Counted from the stretch's first letter, positions 45,934 through 64,000 are shown. The stretch: 64,000 nucleotides of DNA from Gemmataceae bacterium (GCA_009692005.1 SHZZ01000014.1:1-64000), one strand, 5' to 3'. Program-made: numbers and translations. The notes: generated by a model from the letters alone, not told the origin.

Positions 45934-47118
45934 ATGCCCGCGCCAAAAAAAAAGGTGGCCGCGATCGGCACGGTTTACCACCGGCACAGCCATTGCGATG
46001 TCATCCTCGGGAAAATTCTCGAAGGCTTCAACTACGATGGGAAAGCCGGCCCCAACATGGAGCTGGCTTCCCTTTATATCGATCAAATCAACAAAAATGA
46101 CATGTCGCGGGATCTGGCCAAACGCTACGGCTTCCGCCTGGCTAACTCCATGGCCGACGCCCTGACCCTGGGCACAGGCAAGCTGGCTGTCGATGGCGTC
46201 ATCTGCGTAGGCGAGCATGGCGCCTACCCCGACAACGCCAAGGGGCAAAAGCTCTACCCGCGCAGGCGCTTTTTCGAAGCTGTCGATCAGGTCTTCACTG
46301 CCTCCAAAAAAGGCGTGCCGCTTTTCAACGACAAGCACCTCGGCCCCCAGTGGGAAGATGCCAAGTGGATGTACGACATGGCGCGCAGGCACCATGTGCC
46401 GTTTCTGGCTGGATCCTCCCTGCCGGTCACCTGGCGGAAACCACACCTGGATATTCCCAAAGGGACCCCATTGAAAGAGGCCGTGCAGATCGGCTACGGG
46501 CCGTTTGAAGGGTATGGCTTTCACGCCTTGGAATCGCTGCAGTGCCTGGTGGAAAACCGCCAGGGGGGAGAAACCGGTGTGAAGGCGGTCCGCAGCCTGA
46601 GTGGCAATGCCATGTGGGAAGCTTGGGACGCGGAAAAATGGCCCAATGATCTGCTGGAAGCGGCGCTGGCCAGGGTGCCCGCTCATGCCAATGGGGAATT
46701 ACGCAAGGTTTCCGCCGCCACCAAGGACGCCGGGATTTTCTTCATCGAGTACACGGATGGTTTCCGCGCCGCCATGGTCATGCCCAACGGCTGGATTCAT
46801 GAAGGTGACGGCGGCGGCTTCTGCTTTGCCACCAAGTTGCCAGGCAAGACGCCGATTGCTTGTCAGTTCTATCTGCAAAACACCGATCCTTTTGGGCATT
46901 TTGCCGAGCTGGTGAAAGCGATTGACCACCTGGTCAACACGATGCACGAGCCTTACCCGCCCGAGCGCACGCTGCTGACGAGCGGAATTTTAGACGCCGC
47001 CATGACCAGCCGGTTTCAAAATGGGAAAAGGGTGGAAACACCGCACCTCAACATCCGCTATGAAGGAAGCACCTGGGCCTACCCCAAGGGCGCCGTCCCG
47101 CCAACAGTAAAGAGATAA
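45934..47118 (+). CDS. Conserved-looking protein of unknown function
   Basis: 394 residues, no signal peptide. It begins KKKVAAIGTVYHRHSHCDVILGKILEG, a Rossmann-like start with several histidines, and contains VDGVICVGEHGAYPDN, YPRRRFFEAVDQVF, NDKHLGPQWEDAKWMYDMARRHHVPFLAGSSLPVTWR, and a beta-rich C-terminal half (FFIEYTDGFRAAMVMPNGWIHEGDGGG). The overall plan resembles Gfo/Idh-type proteins with a second alpha/beta domain, but the nucleotide motif is not classical. It is translationally close to the small exported protein upstream (3-base gap). After the stop come two hairpins listed separately. Function not known to me. Confidence 0.72.
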   Translation: MPAPKKKVAAIGTVYHRHSHCDVILGKILEGFNYDGKAGPNMELASLYIDQINKNDMSRDLAKRYGFRLANSMADALTLGTGKLAVDGVICVGEHGAYPDNAKGQKLYPRRRFFEAVDQVFTASKKGVPLFNDKHLGPQWEDAKWMYDMARRHHVPFLAGSSLPVTWRKPHLDIPKGTPLKEAVQIGYGPFEGYGFHALESLQCLVENRQGGETGVKAVRSLSGNAMWEAWDAEKWPNDLLEAALARVPAHANGELRKVSAATKDAGIFFIEYTDGFRAAMVMPNGWIHEGDGGGFCFATKLPGKTPIACQFYLQNTDPFGHFAELVKAIDHLVNTMHEPYPPERTLLTSGILDAAMTSRFQNGKRVETPHLNIRYEGSTWAYPKGAVPPTVKR

Positions 47119-52124: not shown

Positions 52125-53375
52125 TCAAGCCTTTCTTCCGGAAATATCGATCAGGTACAACTGCCGCCCTTTACCCTCGTGGGGCGAGTCGATGCAAACC
52201 AAATTGCCATCAGGGCTGAAGCGAGGATGGGTGTCGCAGCGCCATTCACCCGCGTATTCCTTGGGAGAAAGGAAACGGCCCAGGGGCAGGTTTTTCCCGG
52301 TGGGGAGGTGAAAGAGGTAGGGGTGCTGCAAGCGTTCCCTGTCTGGGTAGGTATCGTTCAAAATCCAGTCATTGCCCGGGATGTAGGAGCAATGGCCGTT
52401 CTTGGTCATGATGCCCGCGCCGACTTGCAAGACCTCCGCAGTTTTGTCCTTGAAGAGATAAAAACCCGCGCCTTTGCCTTCGGGTTTGGTCCAGGCCAAA
52501 ATGTGATTGGGATCGCGCCAGATGAAGTGCGAGGTTTCCCCGGAAGGATCCAATACGAAAAGATCGCTGCCATCAGCCCTGGCGGTGACCATGCGGGTCT
52601 TGAAGGAAACTTTCCCCTCGGCCGGTTTCCATCGGTGCAAGAAAACAAAGCGCGAGCCATCGGTGTTAAAAAGCAGGTGGTTGAACCAGTGCTTGGCGCC
52701 TTTCATGCTGGGGGAGAGTTCGCCGAAAGCCGCCAATTGCGCCATGGAAAAGAGTAATTTCTGCGTTCCGGTTTGCAAATCGACCGAGAAGATTCCAGAA
52801 TCTTTGGGCGCCAGTTCGAGTGATGGATCGGGGACGCCAGCATAGCCATAACCCGGGCGAGTGTCGTGCAGTCGGCGAAAATCAGCGGCGATGGCGGTTT
52901 TGCCATCCGGAGACACGGCATAGATAGGGTGGGGTAGAGTCCGCTTCTTGCCGGTTTTCACATCGAGAACATGGCAAACGAACTCGCCCTCTTGCCGGTC
53001 GTTCCAGAGAATTTCCTTCGCCGACCCCGGCAGCCATTGCAGCATGCACCCCTGCTGCCAGCACCAGGCCTTGCTCGTTCCCAGGTTGATCCAGTTGTCT
53101 TTGTCCTGAAGGTCCACCATGCCGATTTGGATGGCGTCCTCGGGCTTGGGCGACCGGTGTTCAATACTAACCCGCATTCCCAGGGCAAATCTGGACGAGG
53201 GGTCAAATTGCAATTTGTCGTAATAGCCAAACCAGTGAAACCCCGGTCCCTTGGTAATAGCGCGCACGGGAAAACCGCTTTTTTCCCCCTGCGCCCAGGC
53301 GGGGAAAACCGCGCTCAAGGCATACCCCGATGCCAGGGAAAGGAAGTTTCTCCGGCTTTGCAATTGTTCGTTCAT
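52125..53375 (-). CDS. Exported beta-propeller protein, possibly oligogalacturonate-lyase-like
   Basis: 416 residues from the ATG at 53375 (SD GAAAGG, 7 bases). A Tat-type leader (QSRRNFLSLASGYALSAVFPAWA) comes first. The mature protein reads as a propeller: GFHWFGYYDKLQFDPSSRFALGMRV, IQIGMVDLQDKDNWINLG, HPIYAVSPDGKTAIAADFRRL, then NHLLFNTDGSRFVFLHRW, HFIWRDPNHILAW and HPRFSPDGNLVCIDS. The opening and blade patterns are reminiscent of oligogalacturonate lyases (PL22) but the active-site residues are not confirmed. It may bind or cleave a polysaccharide in the periplasm. Confidence 0.7.
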   Translation of the reverse strand: MNEQLQSRRNFLSLASGYALSAVFPAWAQGEKSGFPVRAITKGPGFHWFGYYDKLQFDPSSRFALGMRVSIEHRSPKPEDAIQIGMVDLQDKDNWINLGTSKAWCWQQGCMLQWLPGSAKEILWNDRQEGEFVCHVLDVKTGKKRTLPHPIYAVSPDGKTAIAADFRRLHDTRPGYGYAGVPDPSLELAPKDSGIFSVDLQTGTQKLLFSMAQLAAFGELSPSMKGAKHWFNHLLFNTDGSRFVFLHRWKPAEGKVSFKTRMVTARADGSDLFVLDPSGETSHFIWRDPNHILAWTKPEGKGAGFYLFKDKTAEVLQVGAGIMTKNGHCSYIPGNDWILNDTYPDRERLQHPYLFHLPTGKNLPLGRFLSPKEYAGEWRCDTHPRFSPDGNLVCIDSPHEGKGRQLYLIDISGRKA

Positions 53376-53658
53376 GGCTGGCCTTTCAAAAACATGATCC
53401 AGGCATTTTCCAGCAACCTTCGGCACTTGCAAGGGTAGGACGGATTACCCGGTTTGTCTTGTAGAAAATTACTTTTAGGCGCCTTTGCCCTTACAGTTTT
53501 TCCCAATCCGTCGCTCACGCTTCGGGTTCTGAAAGAATGCCCCAGTTCAAATGCGAGCGACTCTGCCGGTACTTTTAATTGCCCGAACGCACCCCCGCAA
53601 TTAGAATGCACCAACCCTCCTGACGCGGAGGCACACCCTGGTTTAGGAATCCTGTTTC

Positions 53659-56600
53659 ATGACCGAGTCCCTCCTCTTGATGTTTTCCCTGGCTTTGGCT
53701 GGCCAGGGGAGGCCCGCCGAACAACTCAACCCCGACTCCCTCTACCGAAAGGAAAACCTGGTCGCCTGGTGCATCGTCCCCTTTGATGCCAAGAAGCGCA
53801 CCCCGGCCCAGCGGGCTGAAATGCTGAAACGCCTCGGGTTCCAGAAATTCGCCTACGACTGGCGCGATGAGCACATCCCCACTTTCGATGAAGAAATCGC
53901 CCAGTTGAAAAAACAAGGCATCGAGCTGACGGCCTTCTGGTTCCCCGGCGGGTTGAACTCCCAGGCCAAAAAGATTTTGGAAGCTTTGGAGCGGAACCAG
54001 GTGCGGACCCAGCTCTGGATATCCATGGGAGACCCAGCGCCCGGCAAAGGGCAGCCAGAAAAGCTAAAAGCAATTGTGGAGCAGATCCGCCCGATCGCCG
54101 CAGCGGCAAAAAAAATCGGCTGCAGCGTCGGGCTGTACAACCATGGCGGCTGGTTTGGCGAGCCGGAAAACCAGGCCCAGATCATGCAACTCCTCAACGA
54201 ACCGAATGTCGGCATCGTTTACAACCTGCACCATGGCCACGACCACCTCGAGCGCTTCACCCTGGCCTTTAAGAAAATCCAACCCTGGCTCTTTTGCGTG
54301 AATATCAACGGCATGGACGCGCAGGGGGACAAAACCGGCCGCAAGATCCTGCAGCTTGGCCAAGGGGAAAAGGATCTGGAACTGCTCCAGGCCATTTTGA
54401 AAACAGGGTACAAGGGACCAATCGGCATTCTCGGCCACACCCAGCACGATGCTGGACTTACCCTCCACGATAATCTCGACGGCCTGGCCTGGCTGGTGAA
54501 AAAGATGAAGAAGGAACCTGCAGGGGCCAAGCCAGTTCCACGCACGCCAGTGCCTAATCGTGTGGCCCCGCCACCGCCTAAACCGCTGACGCAAACACCA
54601 CCACCAGCATTCAAAGAGATCCCTTACAACCCGCAAATGGCCAGCGCGCTTTTGGCCGAGGCCAAAGAAAAAGGTGACAGCGCCAACGGCGCCAGGGTCT
54701 TCGCTTCCGCCAAATACGCCTGCGTTTCCTGCCACAAGGTCGGCGCTCAGGGCGGACAGATCGGGCCGGAACTGACTGCAATCGCCACCTGCATTCAACC
54801 TCAGGAAATCGTGGAAGGCCTGCTCTGGCCATCACGGCAAATCAAAGACGAGTACAAGGCCTGGAGCCTGGTCACTTCCAAGGGGAAATTCCTGCAAGGA
54901 TACAAACTAAAAGACAACGGCAAGGAAATCGTGTTGAAAGAGGCTTCCACTTCCAAGGAATGGAACCTCAATAAAGACGACATCGAGGAAATGAAGGAAG
55001 TGGGCAGCCTGATGCCGGTCGGCATCGCCGAGGCCATGACACCCATTGAACGGCGCGACCTGGTAAAGTTCCTCCTCGACCTGGGAAAAGATCCGAAAGC
55101 CGTTGGCCTGATGCCAGCCATGCGCCCCATGGACATGAAACCCGCCACCTTTACTTACCTGCGCGATCCGCTGGAAAAAGCTGCCTGGCCATCGTGGGAA
55201 TCGTTCGTCAACCGCGAACGACTGTACGATTTTTATTTCAAGCAGGCGGCGCACTTCGCCTCATTAGAAAAGAGGCCGCTGCTGGTGGAGGCGTTCCCCG
55301 GGCTCGACATGGGTAAGCACGGCCACTGGGGGAACCAAAACGAGGAAACCTGGAAGAGCAGCAACTGGAACAAGGCCGACCTGGGGCGAGTGCTGAGCGG
55401 AGTCTTCCGCGGCCCCGGGGTCATGGTGCCACGCGCCGTTTGCGTCCTTTTGGGCGACCAGGGCGAAATGGCCGTCTGCTTTAACCCGGAGACACTTAAC
55501 TATGAAACGCTGTGGCAAGGCGGGTTCCTCAGCTTTTCCAACATCCGACATGGATTCATGGATGGTCTCAGACCAGTCGGCACGATCCTTCCCCTCCCTT
55601 CGGGACGCAAGCTCGACAAGCCATTTACCTACCATGGTTTTTACAGGCATGGCAACCGCGTGATCTTCGCTTATTCCATTGACGGGGTGGAATATCTCGA
55701 TTCCCCCTGGGTGCGCGAGGGGAAGTATCACCGCGAGGTGGCGCCGAGAAAAGTCCATTCGCTAGCCCCGGTGTTGAACGCCCCACCGATGCGCTTTCCA
55801 CAAAAAATCACGGGCAAAATCTCCCTGGGAAAAGGGTCGCCCTACGCCATCGATACCATCGAGGTGCCGTTTGAAAACCCCTGGAAGGCCCCCTTTTACC
55901 CGGGGGATCTGGCATTCCTGGCCAATGGCGCCGGCCTGGTCTGCACCATGCAGGGCGATGTCTGGCGCGTCGATGGACTTGAGCCTTCCTCCACCCAGGC
56001 CACCTGGAAAAAAGTCGCGTCGGGCATGCACCAGGCTCTGGGCATGGTCGTTCATAACGATGCGCCCTATGTCCTCGGTCGCGATCAGATCACCCGCCTG
56101 CACGACTTGAACAACGATGGCGAGTACGACTTTCACGAATGTTTTTGCAACGCTTACAAGACCTCGCCCTCGGGCCACGACTTCCTCTGCGGGTTGGTGC
56201 GCGCCAGTGACGGCTCCTTTTACTTCGCCTCGAGCAACCAGGGCGCCATGCGCGTCTCCCCCGATGGCAAGAAAGCCGAGTCGCTCGCCACCGGCTTTCG
56301 CAATCCCGATGGCATTGGCCTGACACCCGAAGGCAAGATTACCATCCCCTGTTCCGAAGGGGATTGGACACCCAGTTCGATGATCTGCCAGGTAAAGGAA
56401 GGCGGCTTTTTCGGTTCTGGCGGACCGAAGAACGGGGCCGCGCCCGATTTACCCCTCGTCTACCTCCCGCGGGGACTGGATAACTCTGCTGGCGGACAGG
56501 CCACGGTAACTTCCGATCAATGGGGACCGTTGAAAAACCAAATGATCCACTTCTCGTTCGGCGCCTGCTCACACATGCTGCTCTTGCGCGACGAGGTCAA

Positions 56601-57609
56601 GGGCAAGCCGCAAGGAGCGATAGTGCTGTTGCCGGGTGAATTCCTTTCCGGCGCCCACCGGGGAAAGTTCTCCCCAACCGATGGGCAACTCTATGTCGCT
56701 GGCATGCAGGGATGGGGAACCTACGCCATGGCGGAAGGGTCGTTCCAACGGGTGCGCTACACCGGCGCGCCGGTGCAACTGCCGGTGGCAATCCATTCCC
56801 ACGCCAACGGCGTTTACCTCCGCTTCAGCTCCCCTGTCGATGCCAGTCTTCTTGGGAAAACCACCAGCCGGCTGGCCATGGCCTGGAACTACCGGTATTC
56901 CGCCGCCTACGGGTCGGCTGAGTATTCGCCTTCCCATTTCGGCTTGCGCGGACACGACCTTCTCGACATTCCCGCGGCCCATGTTCTGGAAGGGGGCAAA
57001 GCGGTCTTCCTGGAAATTCCCGACCTGCAACCGGTCAATCAACTTTTGCTGCGTCTTCAAGTGGGTCCGGGGGCGCCCGTGAACCTCATCGCCACCGTGC
57101 ATGAACTCGACAACGACTTCACCGCCTACCCCTCCTACAAACCAGTAAAGAAGGCCATTCACCCCCACCCGATTCAATCGGACCTGGCCTTTGCCATCAA
57201 GACTTTGCCCAACAAGTGGAAGTACCCGATCGGCGGCACGCGGGCGCTCAAGGTCGAGGCGGGGCCAAACCTCTCCTTTATTCCCAACCAGTTCAAGGTG
57301 AAAAAGGGCGAGTTGCTGGCCCTGACCTTTCACAACCCCGATGTGGTCCCGCACAACCTGGCGATATTGAAACCGGGAAAACTGCCAGTCGTCGGCCAGC
57401 TCGCCAACGCGCTGATCAGCGACCCGGAAGCGATTGTCCGCCATTATGTTCCCAACTCGCCTGATGTATTCGTCCACACCGATGTGGTCATGCCTTCGGA
57501 CAAATTCACGATTTACTTCAAGGCGCCCGATCAACCAGGCAACTACCCGATGGTCTGCACCTTCCCTGGGCATTGGATGGCGATGAATGGCCTCCTTCAG
57601 GTGGAATAG
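53659..57609 (+). CDS. TIM barrel - cytochrome c - propeller - cupredoxin fusion, exported
   Basis: 1316 residues. A short signal peptide starts at residue 1 (LLLMFSLALAG). Residues about 30-285 are a xylose-isomerase-like TIM barrel (LVAWCIVPFD, TAFWFPGG, GLYNHGGWFG, NINGMD, GHTQHDAG). A Pro-rich linker (about 290-330) leads to a c-type haem site, CVSCH (C355, C358, H359), in a planctomycete-type cytochrome c domain (335-480). A beta-rich region follows (about 500-1190), with HGHWGNQNEETWKSSNWNKADLG in style and a sugar-dehydrogenase-like propeller. The C-terminus is a cupredoxin with His1232, Cys1300, His1305 and Met1309, the type-1 copper pattern C-x4-H-x3-M. It could pass electrons from a sugar or other donor to copper. 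AGGA lies 9 bases before the ATG. The sulfatase follows. Confidence 0.87.
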   Translation: MTESLLLMFSLALAGQGRPAEQLNPDSLYRKENLVAWCIVPFDAKKRTPAQRAEMLKRLGFQKFAYDWRDEHIPTFDEEIAQLKKQGIELTAFWFPGGLNSQAKKILEALERNQVRTQLWISMGDPAPGKGQPEKLKAIVEQIRPIAAAAKKIGCSVGLYNHGGWFGEPENQAQIMQLLNEPNVGIVYNLHHGHDHLERFTLAFKKIQPWLFCVNINGMDAQGDKTGRKILQLGQGEKDLELLQAILKTGYKGPIGILGHTQHDAGLTLHDNLDGLAWLVKKMKKEPAGAKPVPRTPVPNRVAPPPPKPLTQTPPPAFKEIPYNPQMASALLAEAKEKGDSANGARVFASAKYACVSCHKVGAQGGQIGPELTAIATCIQPQEIVEGLLWPSRQIKDEYKAWSLVTSKGKFLQGYKLKDNGKEIVLKEASTSKEWNLNKDDIEEMKEVGSLMPVGIAEAMTPIERRDLVKFLLDLGKDPKAVGLMPAMRPMDMKPATFTYLRDPLEKAAWPSWESFVNRERLYDFYFKQAAHFASLEKRPLLVEAFPGLDMGKHGHWGNQNEETWKSSNWNKADLGRVLSGVFRGPGVMVPRAVCVLLGDQGEMAVCFNPETLNYETLWQGGFLSFSNIRHGFMDGLRPVGTILPLPSGRKLDKPFTYHGFYRHGNRVIFAYSIDGVEYLDSPWVREGKYHREVAPRKVHSLAPVLNAPPMRFPQKITGKISLGKGSPYAIDTIEVPFENPWKAPFYPGDLAFLANGAGLVCTMQGDVWRVDGLEPSSTQATWKKVASGMHQALGMVVHNDAPYVLGRDQITRLHDLNNDGEYDFHECFCNAYKTSPSGHDFLCGLVRASDGSFYFASSNQGAMRVSPDGKKAESLATGFRNPDGIGLTPEGKITIPCSEGDWTPSSMICQVKEGGFFGSGGPKNGAAPDLPLVYLPRGLDNSAGGQATVTSDQWGPLKNQMIHFSFGACSHMLLLRDEVKGKPQGAIVLLPGEFLSGAHRGKFSPTDGQLYVAGMQGWGTYAMAEGSFQRVRYTGAPVQLPVAIHSHANGVYLRFSSPVDASLLGKTTSRLAMAWNYRYSAAYGSAEYSPSHFGLRGHDLLDIPAAHVLEGGKAVFLEIPDLQPVNQLLLRLQVGPGAPVNLIATVHELDNDFTAYPSYKPVKKAIHPHPIQSDLAFAIKTLPNKWKYPIGGTRALKVEAGPNLSFIPNQFKVKKGELLALTFHNPDVVPHNLAILKPGKLPVVGQLANALISDPEAIVRHYVPNSPDVFVHTDVVMPSDKFTIYFKAPDQPGNYPMVCTFPGHWMAMNGLLQVE

Positions 57610-57686: not shown

Positions 57687-59207
57687 ATGGAAACAAACAT
57701 GAAACACTGGTGTCTGGCGCTTATGGCGCTGTCCCTGGCGCCTTGCTCATTCGCGGCGGATGCCACCCGTCCCAATATTCTCGTCTTCATCGTCGATGAC
57801 CTGGGATTTGGCGATATAGGATGCCAGGGCGCCACGCGGGTGAAAACACCGCAGGTGGACCGGCTGGCGAAAGAGGGATTGCGCTTTACCGATGGCCACT
57901 GCGCCGCCGCCACCTGCACCCCTTCGCGTTATGCTTTGATTACGGGAGAATACCCCTGGCGCAAGCGCGGCACCGGGGTGCTGCCAGGCGATGCCGGGCT
58001 GGTTATTGAAACCAACCGGGGAACTCTTCCACTCACTTTGAAAAAGGCCGGCTACACCACCGGTGCGGTGGGCAAGTGGCACCTCGGCCTCGGGCCCGAG
58101 GGCGGCCCCAATTGGAACGGCGAAATCAAGCCTGGCGCCCGCGAAGTGGGCTTCGATTTCAGCTTCATCATGGCAGCAACCGGCGACCGCGTCCCTTGTG
58201 TGTATGTCGAAAATGGCCGCGTGGCCAACCTCGATCCCGCCGACCCGATTGAAGTCAACTACCGCCAACCCTTCCCCGGCTTGCCCACCGGAAAAGCCAA
58301 TCCAGAATTGCTCAAAACGCACCCCAGCCACGGCCACGACATGGCCTTGATCAATGGCATAAGCCGGATCGGCTACATGAAGGGCGGAACCAAAGCCCTG
58401 TGGAAGGATGAGGACATGGCTGATGTCTTTACGAAAAAGGCCATCGGATTCATCGAACAGAACCAGAGCAAACCCTTTTTTCTTTACTTCGCCACACAAG
58501 ATATTCATGTGCCGCGAGCGCCTCACCCCCGCTTTTCTGGCGCCACACCGATGGGCCCCCGAGGAGATGCCATCGCCCAAATGGACTGGTGCCTGGGCGA
58601 ATTGCTGAACACTTTGGAACGGCTGAGTCTGAAGGACAAGACCTTGATCGTCTTCACCAGCGACAACGGCCCGGTGATTGACGATGGCTACAAGGACGAT
58701 GCCGTGCTGAAGCTGGGGGATCATAAAGCGGCGGGCCCCTGGCGGGGCGGGAAGTACAGCAATTATGAAGCCGGCACCCGCGTCCCCTTTATCGTCTCCT
58801 GGCCAGGCCGCATCAAACCGGGGGTGTCCAATGCCCTGGTGTCGCAGGTTGATTTGCACGCTTCATTTGCCGCGCTTTCAAGGGGCCCGGCCCCCCAGGA
58901 GACCGACAGCAAGCAGATCCTTCCCGCCCTGCTGGGCGATTCTCCCCAGGGCAGAGAGTCGCATGTCGCCAGCGCCAGCGCTCTTTCCTTGCGGAAAGGA
59001 AATTGGAAGTACATTGCTCCAGGGAAAGGGGTCAAGGTCACCAAGGCCACGAATACTGAAACGGGGAACGACCCAGCCGGACAGCTTTATAACTTGTCCG
59101 CCGACCCGGGGGAAAAGCAAAACCTGGCCAAACAGCAGCCCAAGAAGCATGAGGAACTGGTGGAAGAGTTGCAAAAAATTCGCCAGGCCGGCCGTTTGCC
59201 GAAGTGA
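57687..59207 (+). CDS. Exported sulfatase (arylsulfatase family)
   Basis: 506 residues. A signal peptide (KHWCLALMALSLAPCSFAAD) precedes the sulfatase domain: NILVFIVDDLGFGDIGCQG with the metal-binding Asp pair, and the active-site motif CTPSRYALITG, in which Cys77 is converted to formylglycine. Further motifs are YTTGAVGKWHLG, FTSDNGP and RGGKYSNYEAGTRVPFIVSWPG. It hydrolyses sulfate esters, likely on a polysaccharide. The start could also be the ATG at 57699. It sits 77 bases after the multidomain gene and 65 bases before the metallo-beta-lactamase-fold gene. The FGE-like protein at 23214 lacks one catalytic Cys, so its maturase is not in view. Confidence 0.95.
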   Translation: METNMKHWCLALMALSLAPCSFAADATRPNILVFIVDDLGFGDIGCQGATRVKTPQVDRLAKEGLRFTDGHCAAATCTPSRYALITGEYPWRKRGTGVLPGDAGLVIETNRGTLPLTLKKAGYTTGAVGKWHLGLGPEGGPNWNGEIKPGAREVGFDFSFIMAATGDRVPCVYVENGRVANLDPADPIEVNYRQPFPGLPTGKANPELLKTHPSHGHDMALINGISRIGYMKGGTKALWKDEDMADVFTKKAIGFIEQNQSKPFFLYFATQDIHVPRAPHPRFSGATPMGPRGDAIAQMDWCLGELLNTLERLSLKDKTLIVFTSDNGPVIDDGYKDDAVLKLGDHKAAGPWRGGKYSNYEAGTRVPFIVSWPGRIKPGVSNALVSQVDLHASFAALSRGPAPQETDSKQILPALLGDSPQGRESHVASASALSLRKGNWKYIAPGKGVKVTKATNTETGNDPAGQLYNLSADPGEKQNLAKQQPKKHEELVEELQKIRQAGRLPK

Positions 59208-59272: not shown

Positions 59273-61123
59273 ATGAAGTTCCGGGAAATCTCCAAGGATG
59301 TCTTCCTCTTCGAGGACACCTGCAATGTTTATGTGGTGAGGGACGGCGACGCGGGTCTGCTGATCGACTTGGGCGCCGGCGCGGTACTCGATCATTTACA
59401 TGAAATCGGCGTGAAGAAAATCGAATGGGCGCTCTTCACGCATCACCACCGCGAGCAGTGCCAGGGGCACCCGCGGTTAATAGGAACCGGCGCCAAGACC
59501 GCCGCGCCAGAAGCCGAGCGCGCCCTTTTCGAAAACCCAACCTCCTTTCGCAAGATCGCGCCCACCCTCGGGGATGCCTTCACCGTGCATGGCGCCAGTT
59601 TTGTCCGGCCCCCCATCATTCCCCTAAAACTTGACCTCACTTTTCAAAAGATGGACGACTTCAACTGGCGCGGCCGCGAGTTCTGGTGCCTCGACACCTC
59701 CGGCAACAGCCCGGGCGGAATGTCGTATTTGTTGAAAACGAGCGAGGGCTGGCTGGCGTTTTCCGGCGATGCCATGCTGGCCGGGGGAAAGCTGCACACC
59801 TGGTTTGATTCCGAATGGGATTATGGGTTCAGCAAGGGAATTTACGCGCTGCACAACGCCGCCGGGCAGTTGGAAGGATTCAACCCAGCCTGGTTGCTGC
59901 CTTCGCATGGGGAACCGGTCCGCTCACCTCGCGCCCAGCTCATCCGTTTCAGAGAAACCCTGCGGGAGATGAACCAGCATTATCTGCGCGGCTGGGAGGT
60001 AATGACTTTCGCCAGCGCCGACCAAGACCGGGTTTCCCAGCCGACCGTGGTGCCGCACATTTGGCAGGTTTCCAAGCACCTGTTCAAATTCCGCGGCCCA
60101 GATTACTGGCCCAACTTCCATATGCTGCTGGCTGATTCCGGCAAAGCCATGGTCGTCGACTGCGGCTTGTTCAAAAAGGAATTCCTCGACAAGGCCCTGC
60201 GGCTGATGCAAGAGCGCCTCGGGTTGAAAAGCATCGAGGTCGTGGTGGTCACGCACATGCATGGCGACCACTGTCTGGAGGCGCCTCACCTGCGCGAGAA
60301 ATACGGCGCCAAACTCTGGACCCTCGACCGCGTCGTCCCCCTGGTTCAACGCCCGCTTCACTTTGATTACTGCGCCCAGATAAACACCTACGGGAAAGGG
60401 ATCGACTCCATTTCCTTCGACCGCATTCTCCGCGATGGCGAAACTTTCCACTGGGAAGGCTTCACTCTCACCGCCGACTGGATGCCCGGGCAGACCGAGT
60501 TCGCCCTTTGTTTGCATGGCGACATCGATGGAAAAAAAGTGGCATTCACCGGCGACAATGCCTTTGGCGCTTCCGCCGACCCGAAACAGACCGGGCACGA
60601 AGCCGTGGTGGCGCGCAACAGTTGCATCCTTGAGGAAAGTTACATTTACGCCGCCAAGTACTTGCAGAAACTGAAGCCCGATCTGTTACTGGGCGGGCAC
60701 TGTTGGGCCATACCCGAGCCCAAGGCGCTGATCGACCGCGGCCTGGCCTCCGCCTTGAAGCTGAAAGACCACTTCACGCGCCTGAGCATCGAGCCGGATT
60801 ACCGCTGGATGTACGACCCGTATTGGGTGCGGCTGGAACCGTACCGCGTGGTGCTGAAGGGCCAGAGCGCCGAGGCGCGTTTGTACTTGCGAAATTTCGC
60901 CGTCAAACCGATGGAGATTCAGATTCAGATCGCCTTGGCCAAGGGCTTCCGCGCCGAGCCCGCGGTAATCGCCACCAGGGTGGCGGGGGAAGCCACGATT
61001 TCCGTGCCAGTGCGCTTCATTAATGAAGGAGCAGCCAAGGGCCTGCACTTGGCGGGGTTCGACATCACCCGTGAGGGGAAACGCCACGGCCAACTCTTCG
61101 ACGGCGTTCTGTTTGTCCAATGA
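59273..61123 (+). CDS. Two-domain metallo-beta-lactamase-fold protein
   Basis: 616 residues, no signal peptide. Two beta-lactamase-fold regions can be read. The first (about 1-210: YVVRDGDAGLLIDLG, FTHHHREQCQGH) has a degenerate metal motif, with Glu-Gln where Asp-His is usual. The second (about 270-500: YWPNFHMLLADSGKAMVVDCG, VVVTHMHGDHCLEAPH, FTGDN, LGGHCW) has a complete H-x-H-x-D-H motif and later His and Asp ligands. The C-terminal 100 residues look like a beta-sandwich. GGGAGG precedes the ATG. It follows the sulfatase by 65 bases, so one operon is likely. Substrate unknown; alkylsulfatase- or glyoxalase-like activity are possible. Confidence 0.85.
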   Translation: MKFREISKDVFLFEDTCNVYVVRDGDAGLLIDLGAGAVLDHLHEIGVKKIEWALFTHHHREQCQGHPRLIGTGAKTAAPEAERALFENPTSFRKIAPTLGDAFTVHGASFVRPPIIPLKLDLTFQKMDDFNWRGREFWCLDTSGNSPGGMSYLLKTSEGWLAFSGDAMLAGGKLHTWFDSEWDYGFSKGIYALHNAAGQLEGFNPAWLLPSHGEPVRSPRAQLIRFRETLREMNQHYLRGWEVMTFASADQDRVSQPTVVPHIWQVSKHLFKFRGPDYWPNFHMLLADSGKAMVVDCGLFKKEFLDKALRLMQERLGLKSIEVVVVTHMHGDHCLEAPHLREKYGAKLWTLDRVVPLVQRPLHFDYCAQINTYGKGIDSISFDRILRDGETFHWEGFTLTADWMPGQTEFALCLHGDIDGKKVAFTGDNAFGASADPKQTGHEAVVARNSCILEESYIYAAKYLQKLKPDLLLGGHCWAIPEPKALIDRGLASALKLKDHFTRLSIEPDYRWMYDPYWVRLEPYRVVLKGQSAEARLYLRNFAVKPMEIQIQIALAKGFRAEPAVIATRVAGEATISVPVRFINEGAAKGLHLAGFDITREGKRHGQLFDGVLFVQ

Positions 61124-61173: not shown

Positions 61174-62442
61174 CTAAAAGAGTTCCTTGACCACCTGGCC
61201 GCCGTCAACGATTTTGACCGGGCGGTTGAGCGGACCCGGGTTTTCCCTCCGGGCGCTTATGCCTAGCGAATGGCAGAAAGAACAGAAGAGATCCGGAACG
61301 GTAACCGGTCGAGATTTCACAGCCATGCCATCGGATGAGGTTTCGCCGATCACCTGGCCGCCGCGAATGCCTCCTCCCGCCAGGGCGATGGAAAACGCCC
61401 GCGGGTAATGGTCGCGCCCGGTGCGCGGATTGATCAACGGCGTGCGGCCGAATTCACCCATCCAAATCACCAGAGTTTTTTCCAACAAACCGCGTTGATG
61501 CAAGTCTTCCACCAGGGCGGAAAACCCGGCATCCACCGCCGAGTTCAACGGTTTAATCCGCTCAAAATGATCAAAGTGCGTGTCCCAATCGCGGGATTCC
61601 ACTTCCACGAAGGGAACTCCCTGTTCAACCAGCCTGCGTGCCAGCAAGCAGCCGCGGCCAAAAGGCGTTTTACCGTACTTCTCTTGCAGACCGTCCTTTT
61701 CCTTGGAAATGTCAAAGGATTCCAGCTTGGGACTGCGCACCAGGCGGGCAGCGTTGGCGTAGATCGCCTGGTGGTCCTCGACTTTCTCCTTGGCGCCATT
61801 GCGGGCATATTCCTTTTCCAGATCGCCAAGCAAATCGAGCCTTCCGCCGAAACGAGAATCATTGACACCCGGCCCGCGGACGGCATTGTTCGGCATGCGC
61901 GATGGGTCGTTGACGGTGAAGGGCGCGTGGGACATGCCAAGGAACCCAGAACCTATGGTGTTGCCTGGAGTGCCAATGGAAACAAAGGAAGGCAGATCGC
62001 CCGGCGGTGGCGGGAGTTGGCTGGAGACAGTGGAACCCAGCGTGGGAAACTTGACCCCGCCAGCGGGAATGTAACCGGTGTGCAAGTGGTATTGTGCTCG
62101 GGTGTGCTCGGCGACATTGTTGGTCATGGAGCGGACAAGAGCGATATGTTTCATCTGGGCGGCGGTTTTCTCCCAGCCGGTGGCAATGTCGATGCTGGAA
62201 ACCGCCGTGCCGATTTTTTCCGTCGGCCCGCCGTTCTTCACCCCAGGCTTGGGGTCGAATGTCTCCAACTGGCTGGGCCCGCCTGTCATGAACAACAGGA
62301 TGCACGACTTGCCTTGCTTTTGCAGTTCCCTGGCGTTGGCCATGACGGCGGCTTTCCAGCCAATGGCCCCGGCCATGCCGGTTTCAAAAAAAGACCGGCG
62401 GCTGACCACCCGTTCTCCATCCACTCCCAAACGCATCCACAT
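61174..62442 (-). CDS. DUF1501 family exported protein
   Basis: 422 residues from the ATG at 62442, with AAGGAG six bases upstream; a longer frame from 62565 overlaps the neighbouring gene and is rejected. A Tat-type leader (VVSRRSFFETGMAGAIGWKAAVMA) leads to the DUF1501 fold: SCILLFMTGGPSQLETFDPKPG, HIALVRSMTNNVAEHTRAQYHLHTG, TLVIWMGEFGRTPLINPRTGRDHYPRAFSIALAGGGIRGGQVIGETSSDG. It is the third DUF1501 protein here and closest to the typical pattern. It starts 23 bases after the DUF1549/DUF1553 stop. Confidence 0.93.
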   Translation of the reverse strand: MWMRLGVDGERVVSRRSFFETGMAGAIGWKAAVMANARELQKQGKSCILLFMTGGPSQLETFDPKPGVKNGGPTEKIGTAVSSIDIATGWEKTAAQMKHIALVRSMTNNVAEHTRAQYHLHTGYIPAGGVKFPTLGSTVSSQLPPPPGDLPSFVSIGTPGNTIGSGFLGMSHAPFTVNDPSRMPNNAVRGPGVNDSRFGGRLDLLGDLEKEYARNGAKEKVEDHQAIYANAARLVRSPKLESFDISKEKDGLQEKYGKTPFGRGCLLARRLVEQGVPFVEVESRDWDTHFDHFERIKPLNSAVDAGFSALVEDLHQRGLLEKTLVIWMGEFGRTPLINPRTGRDHYPRAFSIALAGGGIRGGQVIGETSSDGMAVKSRPVTVPDLFCSFCHSLGISARRENPGPLNRPVKIVDGGQVVKELF

Positions 62443-62465
62443 GGGGTTCTCCTTTTTGCCGACTG

Positions 62466-64000
62466 TCAACGGCGGGTTTGAAACTCCGTGGAATTGATCA
62501 GGGCCCACAGGACATCCTCGAAACCGGCTGCCCGGTCGGGGGCTTTTTTCACATGCTCCAGGCACTTTTTCACTTCTGCCGCCGTCGGTTCCCTTGAAAG
62601 CACCCGCTGATAAATGGCCTTGAGCGCCTGAGAATTATCCGGATTGTCTTGCAGGATCTTTCCCAGCAGGGTGAAGCCGCGAGCGCGGATTTTTTCCTCG
62701 ATCTGCGGACTGTTCATCAGCCACAATGCTTGCGCCACCCCCCCTTCCACCTCGTCCGGGTTTGCAGAGGGATCGAACTTGAAGAGTTCCCGAAACATTC
62801 CTTCATACGAGCGGGCAAAAATCAGCGGGTTGACGCGCACCATTGAGGCGCCACCCACCTGCCCGAGTGAACCGGTAAGTTCCTGCCAGAGGGAGATGGC
62901 CGGCAAGCGCGCCGGGTATACCGCGCTGAAAAGCAGGTGCTCGTCCTGGGTTTGCCCAAGGCGGGTTTCCCGCTGGTAGGCGCGGGTCATGGCGACAGCC
63001 CGCAAGAATTCCTTGGGATTGTAATTGCCGCCCTGGAAGGCGCCAACCAACCGCAAAAACGCCGCGTGCTGCACCGCTTCCTTTTGCGGGCCCATGTCGT
63101 CAATCGGCTGATAAAATCCCTGACCGAGAAGTTTCCCCCAAACGCGGTTGACATAAGCGGCGGCGAACCAGGGGTTGTTCTTGTCCACGATCGACTTGGC
63201 CAGGTCTTCGCGCCGTTTCACATCCGAAGCGAATTTCGGCCCCTCCTGCCCATCGAGGAACTTCGGGTTCATCCGGGTCGACTTGCTGGGATCATCCTTC
63301 AAAGGCATCTGGTGTTCGCCGAAGAATTTCGACACCACGCGCAAGCCGAAGCGGTTGTTGCCGGCGAAGACCAGGCGGTCGCTGGTGCGGGCGAAGTAAG
63401 CCGCGAAATGATGAAACTGTTCTCGTTTCCAAATGTCGCTGGGATGGTCGTGGCACTGGGCGCACTGAATCTGCATGCCGAGGAAAATGCGCGAGACTTC
63501 GGCGGCGCGGTCCACCGGGGCATCGGGGCCCAAGTGCGCCAGCATTAGAAAGGTCTGCCCGTTGGCGGGTTCTCCTGGCATGACTTGCCCCTCGGCGCAA
63601 ATCAGATCCCGAGCCACCTGATCCCACGGGGTGTTTTTTTTCACCTGCTGGGTCATCCAATCCTCAAACGGACGGTAGGCCAGCATGGCCCTGCGGTCGG
63701 TGACTTTCGCCTGAATGACCTCGCCCCAATACATGGCCCAGAAGCGGGCATGGTCATCCGATTCCAGAAGGTCATCCAGCAATTTCTGCCGTTTGTTCGG
63801 TGATTTCGCGCTCAGGAATGATTGGGATTGTTCTGGTGTCGGCGGGCGGCCGGTCATGTCGAGGCAAACCCTGCGGAGGAAGTCGGCATCAGAGCAGAGT
63901 GGAGCGGGACTTTTCCCCAGGCGGGACAGTTCTTTTTCCAACAGGGTGTCGATTTCACCCGGCTGGAGCGGGCCACGGTTCAGGTTCTTCCAGGCGGGTT
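62466..64000 (-). CDS. DUF1549/DUF1553 protein, N-terminus beyond the window
   Basis: At least 511 residues, open to the window edge, so the start and any signal peptide or cytochrome-like domain are missing. DUF1549 is visible as DFLRRVCLDMTGRPPTPEQ with the haem-like motif CAQCHDHPSDIWKREQFHHFAAYF, and DUF1553 as NKNNPWFAAAYVNRVWGKLLGQGF-type sequence, AFLRLVGAFQGGNYNPKEFLRAVAMTRAYQRE and the end ALWLMNSPQIEEKI, VLSREPTAAEVKKCLEHV, DVLWALINSTEF. This is a more compact form than the 1051-residue LamG version. It pairs with the DUF1501 gene 23 bases downstream. Confidence 0.92.
   Translation of the reverse strand, partial: PAWKNLNRGPLQPGEIDTLLEKELSRLGKSPAPLCSDADFLRRVCLDMTGRPPTPEQSQSFLSAKSPNKRQKLLDDLLESDDHARFWAMYWGEVIQAKVTDRRAMLAYRPFEDWMTQQVKKNTPWDQVARDLICAEGQVMPGEPANGQTFLMLAHLGPDAPVDRAAEVSRIFLGMQIQCAQCHDHPSDIWKREQFHHFAAYFARTSDRLVFAGNNRFGLRVVSKFFGEHQMPLKDDPSKSTRMNPKFLDGQEGPKFASDVKRREDLAKSIVDKNNPWFAAAYVNRVWGKLLGQGFYQPIDDMGPQKEAVQHAAFLRLVGAFQGGNYNPKEFLRAVAMTRAYQRETRLGQTQDEHLLFSAVYPARLPAISLWQELTGSLGQVGGASMVRVNPLIFARSYEGMFRELFKFDPSANPDEVEGGVAQALWLMNSPQIEEKIRARGFTLLGKILQDNPDNSQALKAIYQRVLSREPTAAEVKKCLEHVKKAPDRAAGFEDVLWALINSTEFQTRR

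Follow-up and report, generated by a model that had tools for sequence, protein, structure and literature searches.

Domain organisation of the locus

The window, that is, the whole stretch of DNA analysed here (64,000 nucleotides from a Gemmataceae bacterium), contains at positions 53659-57609 an open reading frame (ORF) of 1316 amino acids. Like all its features described below, it lies on the plus strand. The ORF starts with ATG, has in-frame room for only 4 codons upstream, and encodes in succession a TIM barrel, a haem c domain, DUF6797, a beta-propeller, a small beta domain and a cupredoxin; full-length relatives exist. A sulfatase gene with a CTPSR motif is found downstream (57687-59207).

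Pfam matches above the curated cut-offs were obtained for AP_endonuc_2 at residues 58-257 (39.9 vs 31.1 bits), Cytochrom_C at 342-475 (22.4 vs 21.3 bits), DUF6797 at 606-681 (53.4 vs 24.9 bits) and Copper-bind at 1197-1316 (32.6 vs 21.2 bits). Two AlphaFold2 models, computed from alignments of the window and locus proteins, cover residues 323-1316 (pLDDT 88.7, pTM 0.84) and residues 21-490 (model mc1f61ec3c9b4, pLDDT 87.0, pTM 0.60); both were compared with the PDB by Foldseek and VIA superposition. Ligand conservation was counted in an alignment of 60 sequences (A1). The initial annotation had described a barrel, a cytochrome c, a propeller and a cupredoxin in one chain, and had suggested a domain search and a survey of other genomes. 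All four parts are present according to Pfam, NCBIfam and the models, with barrel, haem and copper domains each above a curated cut-off. The CVSCH motif and the copper ligands are exactly where they had been placed, and the full domain order was found again in many Planctomycetota at 46-75% identity. The occurrence of haem, blue copper, barrel and propeller in one planctomycete chain is thus real and conserved. It had not mentioned DUF6797, the small beta domain (residues 1096-1185), M452 as probable distal haem ligand, or the DxNxDGExD loop at residues 816-824.

The protein had also been described as exported. Its N-terminus (MTESLLLMFSLALAG) begins with a short hydrophobic segment, judged by eye to be a possible signal peptide (residues 1-16, 53659-53706), but lacks a basic start. 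Several relatives (e.g. L025, L048 and L054) have clear signal peptides, also judged by eye, and export of the window protein is likely.

The haem and copper sites

The haem c domain (residues 336-477, 54664-55089) belongs to NCBIfam family TIGR02603, which matches residues 339-472 with 76.6 bits (cut-off 68.15, E 1.7e-21) and includes the CxxCH motif, here CVSCH (residues 355-359, 54721-54735). It is homologous to the diheme cytochrome c Kustd1711 (7zs0), with 30% identity and a VIA Z of 16.3 over 144 residues. In anammox bacteria Kustd1711, with its two haems, is a protein by itself, whereas here one haem domain is embedded in a multidomain chain. M452, in the sequence SLMP (55012-55014), aligns with Met292 of Kustd1711, the residue altered in the 7zs1 and 7zs2 mutants, and is the probable distal ligand. 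C355, C358, H359 and M452 are invariant in every one of the 38 Planctomycetota sequences in which the haem domain is present. The haem c site is complete (Cys-Cys-His and a distal Met), and haem binding is predicted.

The C-terminal cupredoxin (residues 1198-1316, 57250-57606) is of the azurin/auracyanin type, and its model superposes on auracyanin A with a VIA Z of 18.7 and an rmsd of 1.4 A over 118 residues. Its ligands are H1232 (57352-57354) and C1300, H1305 and M1309 in the loop CTFPGHWMAM (57556-57585), all four invariant in the 58 planctomycete and verrucomicrobial sequences checked. With ligands and fold both in place, the type-1 site is complete (His-Cys-His-Met), and copper binding is predicted. 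The initial annotation had staked its reading on a haem-binding fold around CVSCH and on the four C-terminal residues converging; at the fold level both hold, as the former region adopts the Kustd1711 haem fold and the C-terminal domain that of auracyanin A. The metal ligands are not there by chance, for they do not vary among relatives that are 46-75% identical, and Verrucomicrobiota (36-40%) keep the copper set as well.

The top Foldseek rows were nitrous oxide reductases, which have the same order of propeller then cupredoxin. The superposition is poor, with an rmsd of about 25 A over long alignments, and the window protein has a type-1 copper loop; homology was rejected. Going by titles and abstracts, we recognised no planctomycete cupredoxin-cytochrome fusion in a literature search. 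The cupredoxin is preceded by the small beta domain (residues 1096-1185, 56944-57213), which has no Pfam name and was found with our own profile in the members that reach this part.

Kustd1711 has redox potentials of about +350 mV (PMC11791136). Potentials of this size are within the range of blue copper proteins.

The barrel

The xylose-isomerase-like TIM barrel (residues 27-290, 53737-54528) is a member of the AP_endonuc_2 superfamily by Pfam score and by fold (Z about 20 vs sugar epimerases). Its nearest PDB structures are sugar 3-epimerases and YcjR (Foldseek E 3e-10, VIA Z about 20, 11-17% identity), YcjR coming first by Foldseek with a VIA Z of 19.8. In AtOGE, a 3-keto-glycoside eliminase, the metal is held by His, Asp, His and Glu on strands 5-8 (PMC10628242). 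PuCGE and YcjR likewise have metal ligands, whereas the window protein has Asn189, Asn215, Leu258 and probably Tyr160. The first three of these align with the metal Asp, His and Glu of YcjR (hhalign probability only 28%) and lie at the termini of model strands 6-8; the strand-5 position is ambiguous, and is probably Y160, at the end of model strand 5. The set of divalent-metal ligands that a metal-dependent epimerase or eliminase would carry where strands 5-8 end was not found in the barrel. At least three of the four canonical ligands appear to be replaced, and the metal site appears to be gone.

The Asn and Tyr residues standing at the former metal positions never vary. The residues invariant in 30 of 30 barrel sequences are Y66, D67, R69, H72, E79, W94, W120, Y160, N161, H162, Y188, N189, H191, H192, H194, N215 and H260. 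An hhalign match of YcjR EPLN on EPEN near residues 168-171 was judged a probable coincidence, since in the model strand 5 already terminates at Y160.

DUF6797 and the propeller

DUF6797 (residues 606-681, 55474-55701) lies inside a conserved block at residues 505-702. The propeller that follows (residues 714-1090, 55798-56928) resembles DUF7133, which matched 38 of 51 family members, and PQQ sugar dehydrogenases. Fold comparison gave a Z of 15.7-15.8 with the PQQ sugar dehydrogenases 2ism and 3a9g, and unrelated propellers such as PknD and Pizza6 scored alike (16.2-16.8). By hhalign, the propeller profile matched the YliI family with 93-95% probability. R881-N882 (56299-56304) align with the RNP motif of these enzymes, and H840 (56176-56178), a candidate catalytic His, misses the YliI position by one residue. 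R1001 (56659-56661), matched by eye, is a candidate C-terminal PQQ-binding Arg. The propeller has a polar core that is conserved. H840, R881, E900, R938, D941 and R1001 are invariant in 60 of 60 sequences, and N882 in 59 of 60. The same 60 of 60 holds for D816, D820, E822 and D824 in the calcium-like DxNxDGExD loop (residues 816-824, 56104-56130), which may bind calcium.

GSDH (PF07995) did not match the window protein at E 0.1, and was found in 2 of 51 members with a best E of 0.22; TIGR02604 scored 13.1 bits against a cut-off of 122.2; the propeller profile found no credible match among PDB sequences. Soluble PQQ sugar dehydrogenases (sGDH, YliI and fungal AA12) share their fold, and probably some residues of the active site, with the propeller of the window protein. 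Lys377 of sGDH, however, has no counterpart in the propeller by alignment, and the host lacks PQQ genes: pqqC is absent from its genome, with 2 matches among 59 relatives, one of which (G003) carries the gene studied here, and pqqE gave no match over the cut-off. These searches do not indicate PQQ synthesis by the host itself, which is not strictly required. Fungal AA12 enzymes are also fused to a cytochrome, but one of type b, as opposed to haem c and copper here.

Also similar in composition are the PVC-type propeller-haem proteins (TIGR02604/DUF7133 with TIGR02603), large chains that likewise unite a propeller with a haem domain of the TIGR02603 family. They differ from the window protein, in which haem precedes propeller and DUF6797, the epimerase-like barrel and the cupredoxin are present. 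One of them, Lac161_ORF7, joins a TIGR02604 propeller, HEAT repeats and a TIGR02603 domain, its kinship to the window protein being judged from the published description (PMC5342196). Our literature search found no paper on DUF6797 or on 'PVC-type heme-binding'. The window protein is a variant of the propeller-haem proteins of planctomycetes that also has the blue-copper domain and the epimerase-like barrel.

Distribution and variants of the family

Of 199 genomes drawn evenly across the phylum, 10 contained a strong match, which in one of them was to the propeller only. Besides the full order of barrel, haem, DUF6797, propeller, beta domain and copper, some Planctomycetota have the haem-to-copper chain without the barrel, and at two loci (L030 and L031) the barrel is encoded by a gene of its own, directly upstream. 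In yet other members, barrel and haem are separated by about 220-236 residues with matches to LamG families, over the Pfam cut-off in 2 of the 8 scanned. In a tree of the propellers, the presence of the barrel requires at least 4 changes on well-supported branches. The window lineage is nested in a supported group that mostly bears the LamG-like insert, and an ancestor of the window protein may therefore have had the insert and lost it.

Verrucomicrobiota have a DUF6797-propeller-beta-copper protein without haem, at 36-40% identity, forming a single well-supported group in the propeller tree. Our own profile found no haem domain in the genes adjoining these versions, on contigs several of which are short. 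The haem domain is thus not obligatory for the propeller-copper unit. One verrucomicrobial member (L084) bears in front a match to 3-keto-disaccharide hydrolase, below the cut-off; together with the LamG-like inserts, it points to sugars.

A second family pairing copper and haem

Profile searches of stretches of the host genome yielded 20 TIGR02603 domains. Another protein of the host (G000:C96, 1654 amino acids) is composed of GDSL, a DUF7133 propeller, HEAT, F5/8, a cupredoxin and then haem. Its cupredoxin is related to that of the window protein (42% identity), and the same type of haem is in one chain with a propeller, but the order of copper and haem is reversed and both the epimerase-like barrel and DUF6797 are absent. 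Members of this second family mostly have 1,550-1,820 residues, and copper precedes haem in 15 of the 15 relatives fetched.

We found 28 plastocyanin-type (Copper-bind) domains in 59 related genomes, 25 of which share a chain with a haem domain: 10 belong to the first family and 15 to the second, the remaining 3 lying outside both. That haem and copper stay together despite differing order and neighbours is the strongest evidence that they form a functional pair. Their recurrence, differently ordered, in a second giant protein of the same bacteria suggests that the pair is probably a built-in electron wire, serving a sugar oxidation that we infer.

Possible function of the protein

The reading that we favour, tentatively and at slightly less than even chances, is that of a probably periplasmic, multidomain redox enzyme, in which the propeller oxidises a sugar, haem and copper carry the electrons and the barrel processes the product. 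The propeller, related to PQQ sugar dehydrogenases but diverged from them, would act on a sugar or glycoside. Its electrons would pass singly through haem and copper to a respiratory-chain partner, the recurring haem-copper pair being the wire. The barrel, whether fused or encoded by a neighbouring gene as in some relatives, would rearrange or cleave the oxidised sugar, as YcjR or 3-keto-glycoside eliminases do elsewhere. In favour of this reading are the domain matches and models, the invariant metal ligands and propeller residues, the haem-copper pairing in two families, the barrel gene upstream at L030 and L031, the hints at sugars, the activity of Lac161_ORF7 on lactose and the potentials of Kustd1711. 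Against it stand the lack of pqq genes, of a Lys377 counterpart and of exact register for H840, the weak sequence match to GSDH, the equal fold scores of unrelated propellers, the apparent replacement of the barrel ligands and the haem-free verrucomicrobial forms. The initial annotation had proposed an electron relay linking a carbohydrate reaction to the respiratory chain. The haem-copper part of that proposal is strengthened by the second family with swapped order; its carbohydrate part we infer. The propeller is similar to PQQ sugar dehydrogenases by fold and, in part, by residues. A more elaborate version, in our view quite improbable, would make the protein a self-contained machine for oxidative glycan cleavage: glycosides would be oxidised without NAD or PQQ, perhaps at C3, the haem-copper wire would take the electrons, and the barrel, with a rebuilt site devoid of metal ligands, would cleave or epimerise the keto-sugar, the second family being a separately assembled version of the wire.

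The propeller could instead be a true PQQ sugar dehydrogenase that relies, like E. coli YliI, on external PQQ, with haem and copper removing the electrons. E. coli retains YliI without PQQ synthesis, so the missing pqq genes weaken a role of PQQ but do not exclude it. The fold match to 2ism, 3a9g and sGDH, the RNP motif and the C-terminal Arg all favour such an enzyme, as does the fact that AA12 enzymes, likewise without Lys377, still bind PQQ (PMC6881789). However, pqqC is missing in nearly all carriers as well as here, the catalytic His is out of exact register and GSDH similarity stays below Pfam thresholds, and we consider this explanation unlikely. A somewhat better case, though still a rather unlikely one, can be made for a glycoside hydrolase or lyase, formed by propeller and barrel and working without net electron transfer, in which haem and copper would have another task, for instance in docking, in sensing or in a redox step inside the protein. 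Lac161_ORF7, a propeller-HEAT-haem protein, hydrolyses lactose in vitro with a Km of 1.8 mM and was reported as a beta-galactosidase (PMC5342196), which supports a glycoside substrate rather than a redox step, and the haem-free verrucomicrobial forms fit as well. What speaks for a redox role, however, is that both metal sites are invariant and occur as a pair in two families. Very improbable, finally, is a mere tethering of domains that each work alone, with no direct electron exchange between haem and copper: the barrel has indeed been fused or split several times and haem is absent in Verrucomicrobiota, but the association of haem with 25 of 28 plastocyanin-type domains, in two orders, speaks against it.

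The haem-copper pair, present in two differently built families, points to a reusable electron-transfer module. Planctomycetes are rich in giant haem-binding proteins (about 20 in the host genome), whose role becomes testable through this pairing. If the propeller does oxidise sugars, this would explain how extracytoplasmic glycan breakdown is coupled to respiration.

The neighbouring sulfatase

The sulfatase gene had been taken to suggest sulfated sugar as the context. It does follow the ORF, but in the closest relatives (74-75% identity) the sulfatase is not adjacent, which leaves this suggestion little support, and the sulfatase was rejected as a functional partner. The host genome (4.19 Mb) has about 28 sulfatase genes (32 matches, some split), so that one would be a direct neighbour by chance in roughly 2% of cases (an estimate for about 3,500 genes), which is uncommon without being remarkable. 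Given this figure, and since a sulfatase does adjoin the gene at some verrucomicrobial loci (L084 and L094), we regard the link as weak rather than excluded.

Domain arrangement in the two copper-haem proteins

The small beta domain of the main protein (residues 1096-1185, window 56944-57213, + strand), which has no Pfam name, is placed between the propeller and the cupredoxin in planctomycete and verrucomicrobial forms alike. A second giant protein with copper and haem domains, G000:C96, is encoded in the same genome (locus L138, 6258-11219, - strand). Its domains are GDSL, DUF7133 propeller, HEAT, F5/8, cupredoxin and haem, and the copper domain precedes the haem domain in all 15 relatives whose sequences were fetched.

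Other genes of the window

Ahead of the main ORF, and divergent to it, lies the gene of a propeller-like protein (52125-53432, - strand), whose Pfam match is only weak and whose start resembles an RR signal. Downstream, the sulfatase gene is adjoined by that of a 616-aa protein (59273-61123, + strand) carrying two metallo-beta-lactamase-fold stretches on a single chain. A DUF1501 gene and its neighbour, a putative DUF1549/DUF1553 gene, are found at 61174-62565 and 62466-63998 (both - strand); a pair resembling them is present downstream of the main gene in its nearest relatives. Elsewhere, an ORF of 394 aa (45934-47118, + strand) gave no Pfam match and reads like an oxidoreductase-type protein.
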